24,140 nt of DNA from an uncultured Clostridia bacterium (GTDB lineage: Bacteria; Bacillota; Clostridia; Oscillospirales; Oscillospiraceae): the NCBI GenBank assembly GCA_945635805.1, contig CALZCW010000002.1, forward strand, positions 1-24,140, given 5' to 3'. Below, in pieces: positions 10,758-12,493 of the stretch. Numbering within the stretch: the first letter of the stretch is position 1; every line of letters begins with the position of its first letter. The notes under the pieces are model-generated. The model was given only the letters and a program-made list of their open reading frames with translations, made no database searches and was not told the origin of the DNA. Both the position numbers and the translations under genes were made by a program.

Positions 10758-11090
10758 ATGGAACCTGTTAAACTGGTGATGCTGATTTTTATCGGCGTCT
10801 TGGTATGCGTCGCCCTTGGACTGGCGGCAAACAACAAACTGCTGAGATCGGAAAAGGATGATCTCCTGCGAAGATGCACCCGGCTGCTCCTGGAGCGGAA
10901 TCAGGCCGAGGCCGAAGTTAAGACGGCGCTCTGCCGGAACAAATCCCACACGAGCTTTGAGGTGCGGATGAAGGAAGTGGAGATCGAGCAGCTCCAGGAT
11001 GATCTCAGCGCGGCAAACAAGAAGATTGAGATCCTGGAATCCGCAATCAACCGGATGTGGCCGGGAGGTGAAAGGAATGGCAGTCAGTAG
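10758..11090 (+). CDS. Membrane-anchored coiled-coil protein, unknown function
   Basis: A 110-residue protein with one N-terminal membrane helix (about 4-24) followed by a long charged helix (about 28-100) typical of a coiled coil. GAAGGAG precedes the ATG. The pattern resembles a membrane-tethered spanin- or RmuC-like rod but there is no family I recognise. It lies between SSB and a zinc-finger protein and overlaps the latter by 14 bases. Confidence 0.65.
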   Translation: MEPVKLVMLIFIGVLVCVALGLAANNKLLRSEKDDLLRRCTRLLLERNQAEAEVKTALCRNKSHTSFEVRMKEVEIEQLQDDLSAANKKIEILESAINRMWPGGERNGSQ

Positions 11091-11331
11091 ATACTGTGAA
11101 TACTGCGGGCGGGCGATCATTCCGAAGTCCAGCCACGCGGTCAAGCAGTATTACTGCTCCCCGGAGTGTCGGAGAGCGGACAAGCGTGACCAATACAACG
11201 AGAACCGCCGGAATGCCAGACGGTCGCCGGAGCCGGTCAAGCAGAACCACAGGCTGGACGCGCTCGCTATGGAGGCCAAGATTGCAAAGATCAGTTATGG
11301 GAAGCTCATGGCGAGGAGGTCGCAGGCGTGA
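11077..11331 (+). CDS. Small zinc-finger protein
   Basis: An 84-residue basic protein with one CxxC...CxxxC zinc-finger (Cys7, Cys10, Cys27, Cys31; YCEYCGRAI and YYCSPEC) followed by a basic helical tail. It probably binds nucleic acid. AGGTGAAAGGA precedes the ATG, and its stop overlaps the GTG start of the methyltransferase. Confidence 0.68.
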   Translation: MAVSRYCEYCGRAIIPKSSHAVKQYYCSPECRRADKRDQYNENRRNARRSPEPVKQNHRLDALAMEAKIAKISYGKLMARRSQA

Positions 11332-12239
11332 CGCTGACCCATCTATCCCTGTTCTCCGGCATAGGCGGTCTTGACCTTGCAGCGGAGTGGGCGGGATTTC
11401 AGACTGTTGGGCAATGCGAATGGGCCGACTATCCAACAAAGGTGCTGGAGAAACATTGGCCGAACGTGCCACGCTGGCGGGACATTCGGACGCTGACAAA
11501 GGAGAGTTTCTATGAGCGGACAGGATTACGAACAGTTGACGTTATTTCAGGGGGATTCCCCTGCCAGCCGTTCAGTGTTGCCGGGAAGCGAAGAGGCACG
11601 GAGGATGACCGTTACCTCTGGCCGGAAATGCTTAGAGTTATACAAGAAATCCGGCCAGCTTGGGTCGTTGGTGAGAACGTTGCTGGTCTCGTCAGTATGG
11701 CGCTCGACACGGTGCTATCTGACCTGGAAGGTCTCGGCTACGCCTGCCAAGCGCTTATTATTCCGGCTTGTGCCGTCGACGCCCCGCACAGAAGGGATCG
11801 ATGCGCGATTGTGGCCCACTGTGAGGGCGAAAGAGAGCGGAGCATATCAGTACAGCCAAGGGCGACACGACAAGCCGACGCTGACACTGACAGGAGCGGC
11901 CAGATTATGGCCGACACCCAGGGCGAACAAGATCGGCGGGTACAGCAGCACGGATTTTCGCCCGACACTGGAGCAGGCCGTGATGCAGGAAGCGGGCCTT
12001 TTGCCTACCCCGATAGCGACCGACTGGAAGAACCGCGGTTGCAAGGATTACAGAAAGAATCGGGAGCATCAGCTGCAAACCTACGTTGGTGGCCAGCTGA
12101 ACCCGACGTGGGTCGAGTGGCTCATGGGGTTCCCAATCGGGTGGACAAACTTAAAGGACTAGGAAACGCAGTCGCTCCACCGCAGTTTTTCCCGATATTC
12201 AAGGCGATTGCAGAAATCGAGGAGATGAATCATACATGA
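11328..12239 (+). CDS. C5-cytosine DNA methyltransferase (orphan, phage)
   Basis: A 303-residue enzyme that would transfer a methyl group from SAM to cytosine C5. Motif I FSGIGGLDLA (9-18), motif IV GGFPCQPFS with catalytic Cys79, motif VI ENV (116-118), motif VIII-like HRRDR (154-158) and motif X GLGNAVAPPQ (277-286) are in order. The stretch 165-262, where a target-recognition domain should lie, is hydrophilic and unusually simple. It starts at GTG in a GTGA overlap. No cognate restriction gene is seen, so it probably guards phage DNA against host restriction. A second gene lies wholly inside it in another frame, which may explain its odd middle. Confidence 0.9.
   Translation: MTLTHLSLFSGIGGLDLAAEWAGFQTVGQCEWADYPTKVLEKHWPNVPRWRDIRTLTKESFYERTGLRTVDVISGGFPCQPFSVAGKRRGTEDDRYLWPEMLRVIQEIRPAWVVGENVAGLVSMALDTVLSDLEGLGYACQALIIPACAVDAPHRRDRCAIVAHCEGERERSISVQPRATRQADADTDRSGQIMADTQGEQDRRVQQHGFSPDTGAGRDAGSGPFAYPDSDRLEEPRLQGLQKESGASAANLRWWPAEPDVGRVAHGVPNRVDKLKGLGNAVAPPQFFPIFKAIAEIEEMNHT
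11512..12162 (+). CDS. Nested gene inside the methyltransferase (+1 frame), conserved phage family
   Basis: A 216-residue frame overlapping residues 62-278 of the methyltransferase in the +1 frame. It has its own AAAGGAGAG ribosome-binding site (11498-11506) at a correct distance from ATG 11512. The product carries repeated motifs LWPTVRA (100), LWPTPRA (132) and LLPTPIA (163) and a conserved-looking end LNPTWVEWLMGFPIGW. I recognise this ending from phage proteins encoded with Dcm-like genes. Role unknown; a partner or specificity subunit for the methyltransferase is a guess. It is not a shadow: start signal, motif repeats and length all argue for translation. Confidence 0.75.
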   Translation: MSGQDYEQLTLFQGDSPASRSVLPGSEEARRMTVTSGRKCLELYKKSGQLGSLVRTLLVSSVWRSTRCYLTWKVSATPAKRLLFRLVPSTPRTEGIDARLWPTVRAKESGAYQYSQGRHDKPTLTLTGAARLWPTPRANKIGGYSSTDFRPTLEQAVMQEAGLLPTPIATDWKNRGCKDYRKNREHQLQTYVGGQLNPTWVEWLMGFPIGWTNLKD

Positions 12240-12493
12240 GCATTTCGGTATTTACCAACAGCGCCGCCGAGGTTGCGGCAGCCGTGGAGAATCCATGCCG
12301 GCAGGACTGCGAGAGGCGGTGTGCCGGGTGCCATGCCAAGTGCGAGGCATACCTGGAATACCAGGCATACAGGCAGACCGTGTATGCGGCCAGGGCAAAG
12401 GCAGAAGCCATGAAGGGGCCGACGCCCGGGAAGCAGGCCAGGCTTCGGCAGGCAGGCCGCGAAAAGCGCGGCGGATACAGACATAGGAGGTAA
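12236..12493 (+). CDS. Cysteine-rich small protein
   Basis: An 85-residue protein starting in an ATGA overlap with the methyltransferase stop. It has a five-cysteine cluster CRQDCERRCAGCHAKC (21-36), a tyrosine/alanine helix and a basic tail ending GGYRHRR. The cluster suggests zinc binding; the basic tail suits nucleic-acid contact. GAGGAGATG lies upstream. I do not recognise a family. Confidence 0.65.
   Translation: MSISVFTNSAAEVAAAVENPCRQDCERRCAGCHAKCEAYLEYQAYRQTVYAARAKAEAMKGPTPGKQARLRQAGREKRGGYRHRR

Follow-up and report, generated by a model that had tools for sequence, protein, structure and literature searches.

In the C5-cytosine methyltransferase M.EcoHK31I, the beta polypeptide is encoded in another frame inside the gene for alpha. 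The parts of PMC3404938 that deal with M.EcoHK31I (YGGCCR) describe two polypeptides, the larger with motifs I-VIII and X and the smaller with motif IX, and place the predicted target-recognition domain in the larger subunit. M.AquI (CYCGRG), a split C5-methyltransferase treated in the same parts, has motifs IX and X in its smaller subunit (PMC3404938). Here we analyse contig CALZCW010000002.1 of an uncultured Clostridia bacterium, taken at its whole length of 24,140 bases (hereafter the window) from a 66.6%-complete assembly of 1.03 Mb, and in it a C5-methyltransferase gene (alpha) that contains a second gene (beta) nested in its +1 frame. Like M.EcoHK31I, when the published description rather than sequence is compared, the locus has motifs I-VIII and X in alpha and motif IX in the smaller beta. 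We put at roughly 0.8 the probability that the locus encodes one C5-cytosine methyltransferase, made as alpha plus beta and working like M.EcoHK31I.

Methyltransferase motifs in the two reading frames

Alpha is a C5-cytosine DNA methyltransferase of 303 aa (11328..12239; all features given here lie on the + strand), with motifs I-VIII and X and a match to PF00145 (E 6.2e-42). Its motif I reads FSGIGG (11352..11369). Conservation was followed in 251 loci, comprising the window, 10 phage records, 80 viral and 80 genome contigs retrieved with the nested protein, and 80 viral contigs retrieved with the methyltransferase. Within the overlap lie PCQ of motif IV with the catalytic cysteine (11559..11567) and ENV of motif VI (11673..11681), each present in 247 of these loci, as well as HRRDR of motif VIII (11787..11801), whose pattern [HQ]xRxR was matched in 245. 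Motif X, GNAV (12162..12173), follows directly after the overlap; it shares only base 12162, its first, with the nested stop codon TAG (12160-12162). Motifs I, IV (PCQ), VI (ENV), VIII and X and the Pfam match all identify alpha as a C5-methyltransferase; what it lacks is motif IX together with a folded target-recognition domain in one chain, and a IX-like motif occurs only in the nested frame. At the position expected for that domain, alpha has a hinge (about residues 171-262; 11838..12113) with a column conservation of 0.19-0.30, and block means of the predicted local distance difference test (pLDDT) were 42-51 over residues 171-260. The target-recognition region of alpha is unconserved and, according to structure prediction, unfolded.

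Beta (216 aa; 11512..12162) lies entirely within the alpha open reading frame (ORF). Its Shine-Dalgarno sequence, AAAGGAG (11498..11504), is formed by alpha codons and stands 7 nt 5' of the ATG. Three repeats, LWPT (11809..11820), LWPT(P) (11905..11916) and LPTP (12001..12012), begin at residues 100, 132 and 164; their spacing across 11809-12012 is exactly 32 residues (96 nt). Residues 196-208 (12097..12135) form the motif-IX-like segment LNPTWVEWLMGFP, which aligns with the in-frame LNPAFPEWMMGWP of actinophage methyltransferases, and the protein ends in LNPTWVEWLMGFPIGWTNLKD. Beta matched the phrog_1008 family over residues 4-213, that is, most of its length (E 1.2e-38), and had no match in Pfam or NCBIfam. 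The initial annotation, made from this DNA alone, had recognized a complete 216-residue gene in another frame of the methyltransferase, its own start signal, the three PT repeats and the family-like ending, all of which stand; the standard motifs that it read in the host frame also stand, except that motif X, placed inside the overlap, lies just outside.

Relationship between alpha and beta

The C-terminal half of beta aligned with the recognition/motif-IX segment of single-chain actinophage methyltransferases, where the segment is in frame (hhalign E 9.6e-15), and on this alignment the two are homologous. Alpha and beta are probably complementary parts of one enzyme and not two independent families; the earlier view of both frames as real families is retained for dual coding and revised for their independence. 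The suspected trading between frames is supported: the recognition region of the host frame lacks conservation and a predicted fold, and the counterpart of that region is in the nested frame. In the proposed enzyme, alpha, read in frame 0, would be the catalytic subunit with motifs I-VIII and X, and beta, started from its own Shine-Dalgarno sequence and ATG, would provide the target-recognition/motif-IX part in trans. The two would bind each other to form the holoenzyme, methylation would require both, and the methylation mark could protect the DNA of a phage carrying the locus from host restriction. If so, phage C5-methyltransferases annotated as single genes would be two-subunit enzymes, and alpha cloned alone or codon-optimised would lose activity.

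Several points weigh against assigning the two proteins to one enzyme. The AlphaFold2 (AF2) model of beta is weak (pLDDT 65.7; predicted template modelling score, pTM, 0.29), and no match to beta was found among solved structures in the PDB, an absence from which we draw no conclusion. The first 95 residues of beta, which lie +1 to motifs IV-VIII, have no counterpart in single-chain enzymes. Moreover, unlike M.EcoHK31I as described in the sections cited above, the window has its recognition-like segment in beta, and the corresponding region of alpha is unconserved and of low confidence. Beta might instead be a separate protein, such as an inhibitor, a regulator or an anti-restriction factor, that overprints the methyltransferase without being its subunit. 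Nesting alone does not prove a shared function, and beta has its own start signals, a conserved N-terminal half foreign to single-chain methyltransferases and no solved-structure match; we nevertheless consider this improbable, given the alignment of its C-terminal half, the lack of conservation and of predicted folding in alpha exactly at the matching region, and the finding of beta only together with alpha in 251/251 loci (160 of them were chosen by nested similarity, so rare solo copies are possible).

Initiation of beta and selection on both frames

Across 205 distinct loci, the beta start codon was ATG in 176, TTG in 18 and GTG in 3, and was not found or lay at an edge in 8. A Shine-Dalgarno match of at least 5 nt preceded 103 of 197 homologous beta starts, compared with 211 of 2050 random ATGs, and an in-frame stop occurred at most 5 codons upstream in 127 of the 197. 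These data argue for separate initiation of beta and not for frameshifting. It is very unlikely that the +1 frame is read mainly through ribosomal frameshifting from alpha into a fused alpha-beta chain: neither frame is interrupted within the overlap, and in some relatives the alpha frame itself includes the motif-IX segment, but a fused chain would require a second shift to reach motif X, and the conserved start codon, Shine-Dalgarno sites and upstream stops also speak against it.

Alpha codons in the overlap were permuted synonymously 50 times per locus in 204 of the 205 distinct loci, one being left out for an ambiguous codon. After permutation, the +1 frame was open with a mean probability of 0.016 and held 3.87 stops on average, compared with none in the real sequences, and the real nested score (mean 208 bits) exceeded all 50 permutations (mean 53.5 bits) in 204/204 loci. 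For the window, the permuted frames had a mean of 6.14 stops and none of the 50 stayed open, and the nested-profile score was 369.6 bits against 132.6 for the best shuffle. Third-position change at conserved methyltransferase residues was 0.530 upstream, 0.233 in the overlap and 0.466 downstream (585 pairs, 137 sequences). From nested residue 97 onwards, conservation in five successive blocks was 0.34, 0.30, 0.33, 0.26 and 0.74 in the nested frame, compared with 0.30, 0.23, 0.19, 0.20 and 0.58 in alpha. An untranslated shadow of conserved methyltransferase codons is scarcely credible and was rejected by the permutation test: the methyltransferase itself is strongly conserved and shuffles retain part of the nested score, but every real frame is free of stops and scores above all its shuffles, strong synonymous constraint is limited to the overlap, and past residue 96 conservation is higher in the nested frame than in alpha.

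The nested 216-codon frame is a real gene, and these comparisons strongly support conservation and selection of both frames, that is, real dual coding. The initial annotation had proposed about 650 dual-coding bases and a test of synonymous constraint across homologues; the +1 position in 251/251 loci and the permutation and third-position results bear out the former, and the test gave the expected signal. Full-length dual coding is rarely maintained over such large distances and is difficult to prove. This family offers thousands of natural sequences in which to test both frames, and its two products would have a joint function that can be assayed.

Distribution and other arrangements

The nested profile matched the +1 frame of the methyltransferase ORF in all 251 loci. 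A further 80 loci, the top-ranking ones among at least 589, were selected using only the methyltransferase core; the nested N-terminal profile was found at +1 in 80/80, five of which end at a contig edge before the C-terminus. In a large protein search, 3359 of 3797 candidate proteins matched beta, and with tblastn it was found in 75 phage records at a cut-off of E 1e-5 and in 122 at one of E 0.01. The homologue in Paenibacillus larvae phage Shelly is annotated 'g55 internal gene', and those in other phage records are unannotated, hypothetical or 'DNA methyltransferase'. Genome contigs in the tree bear the names of ten phyla; most are metagenome bins, and the host may be mislabelled in some cases. 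The gene is uncommon when counted per genome (9/200 genomes of the window's family and 4/299 of its phylum, its own genome being counted in both). As judged from these sequences, the double coding is widely conserved in phages.

phrog_1008 mixes nested beta proteins with in-frame methyltransferase C-termini, both labelled DNA methyltransferase, which hides the overlap in annotations. One phrog_1008 match from the phylum sample (L394) contains a TGA.

Frequent breakage of the +1 frame in homologues had been named as the observation that would count against dual coding. It was not seen in the 80 core-chosen loci, but was found in part in one actinophage branch: of 30 loci retrieved with the enzyme of Mycobacterium phage WillSterrel, only 9 scored with the nested N-terminal profile. 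In this branch, wherever a motif-IX segment was located, it is usually the methyltransferase frame that encodes it. In many of the loci without a nested score, the +1 frame is still open over a long stretch and has a related ending; its chance of openness under permutation ranged from 0 to 1, so dual coding is not demonstrated for all these loci. Single-chain methyltransferases of actinophages (L259-L288) keep a long open +1 frame over motifs IV-VIII, and many of these frames share the sequence YSETxPTSGMTRNG..LPTPR, which suggests a further nested protein. Two overlapping ORFs are present in Gordonia phage Camerico and Arthrobacter phage KBurrousTX, one with motifs I-VIII and the other with the motif IX+X segment. 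Altogether, 371 labelled loci comprised 288 nested, 31 frame-shifted, 14 single-chain, 6 split and 32 unclear arrangements. The single-chain forms and one split form fall in one supported part of the tree, which is unrooted and whose bootstrap is not settled.

Simple tracts in the hinge of relatives

Among 283 distinct loci, 255 had canonical frames and 28 had motif X, and usually motif IX, moved by one frame. Outside the window, the dual-coded hinge of relatives contains tracts of (AG)n, (AC)n or poly-G; a simple hinge tract was present in 22/28 frame-shifted and 22/255 canonical loci (Fisher p 1.4e-15, indicative only, as loci are related). Loci with a hinge tract and both C-terminal modules shifted by one frame include L125, L133, L208, L213, L215, L216, L219, L224-L228, L231, L233, L235, L237, L248 and others. 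Regardless of repeat unit (G, AG/GA or AC/CA), the tract end lies 50-65 bp upstream of module X in 28 of 42 cases. The hinges (130 kb) contained 22 dinucleotide runs of at least 6 units, the flanks (1494 kb) contained 6, and none of 60 shuffles had more than 2; poly-G/C runs of at least 9 numbered 13, compared with at most 10 in shuffles. Over 2814 aligned bases, the viral contigs L233 and L235 differ by a single G, located in the poly-G tract, and are in different shifted states; further downstream they diverge, as if recombined. Within their poly-G group, contigs with 8, 9, 10 and 11 G have the frame states predicted from steps of three.

The case for a switch rests on the longer runs, their position, the association with frame and the G10/G11 pair. 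It is weakened by the plain tract count, which is only moderately raised (45, against a dinucleotide-shuffle mean of 25.8 and a highest value of 42 in 100), and by the thinness of a single contig pair as evidence for switching. Poly-G lengths may contain homopolymer errors, which are unlikely for (AG)n, and 6 of the 28 frame-shifted loci have no tract and may represent decay or other arrangements. The window itself has no switch tract, with no homopolymer of at least 6 and no dinucleotide run of at least 4 in 11328-12300; it falls in the same well-supported 38-row tree set as most shifted loci (bootstrap not settled).

These patterns suggest that one tract phase-varies both subunits in relatives. 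In the window-related clade, slippage of a dinucleotide or poly-G tract shortly upstream of the C-terminal modules likely moves the motif IX and X frames together; a single mutation would then alter the C-termini of both overlapping proteins and turn both subunits off or on at once. Over longer times, transfer of the segment from one frame to another may have produced nested, split and single-chain enzymes. Such a tract would control two proteins simultaneously from one site and might allow phages to vary their own DNA methylation.

Genomic setting of the window

The window carries a phage, as its genes match PHROGs families for an endolysin, a serine integrase, an SbcC-like ATPase, a single-stranded DNA-binding protein (SSB), a terminase, a portal and a head protein. 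The methyltransferase gene sits between the replication and packaging genes. Directly upstream of alpha, a small ORF (10999-11331) has two CxxC-type pairs and weak zinc-finger-like matches below the cut-off. A weak RE_XamI match of the gene next to the methyltransferase (E 0.18) was also below the cut-off and was disregarded, and no restriction gene was recognized among the scanned neighbours of the locus.

Comparison with known systems

No report of such nesting in phages or of tract switching appeared among the literature search results covered. Three plasmid loci were inspected; they have the appearance of prophage or plasmid-phage gene sets, and no link to EcoHK31I or EaeI was found in them. 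A known case of the arrangement is gp56 inside gp55 of phage Shelly, which belongs to the same nested family (phrog_1008) and has the same position as the window beta. Phage N15 of E. coli K-12 is a further example, in its gene 58 region. The names given to phrog_1008 and to the Shelly gene are only DNA methyltransferase or hypothetical and carry no functional assignment, and the passages covered of the P. larvae phage papers do not discuss the nested gene. The single-chain enzyme of the WillSterrel type (L252) shares with the window beta its PTPxA repeats and an LNPxFxEWMMGxPxGW segment, but there the segment is read in frame with the methyltransferase and precedes motif X within a single chain. 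As with M.AquI, to the extent that PMC3404938 was covered, the window locus would make one C5-methyltransferase from two polypeptides; unlike in that linear split, motif X is again in alpha, and the beta gene lies inside the alpha gene. The locus is most likely a variant of the M.EcoHK31I kind; this variant is distributed very widely among phages and likely includes a branch that is phase-variable.
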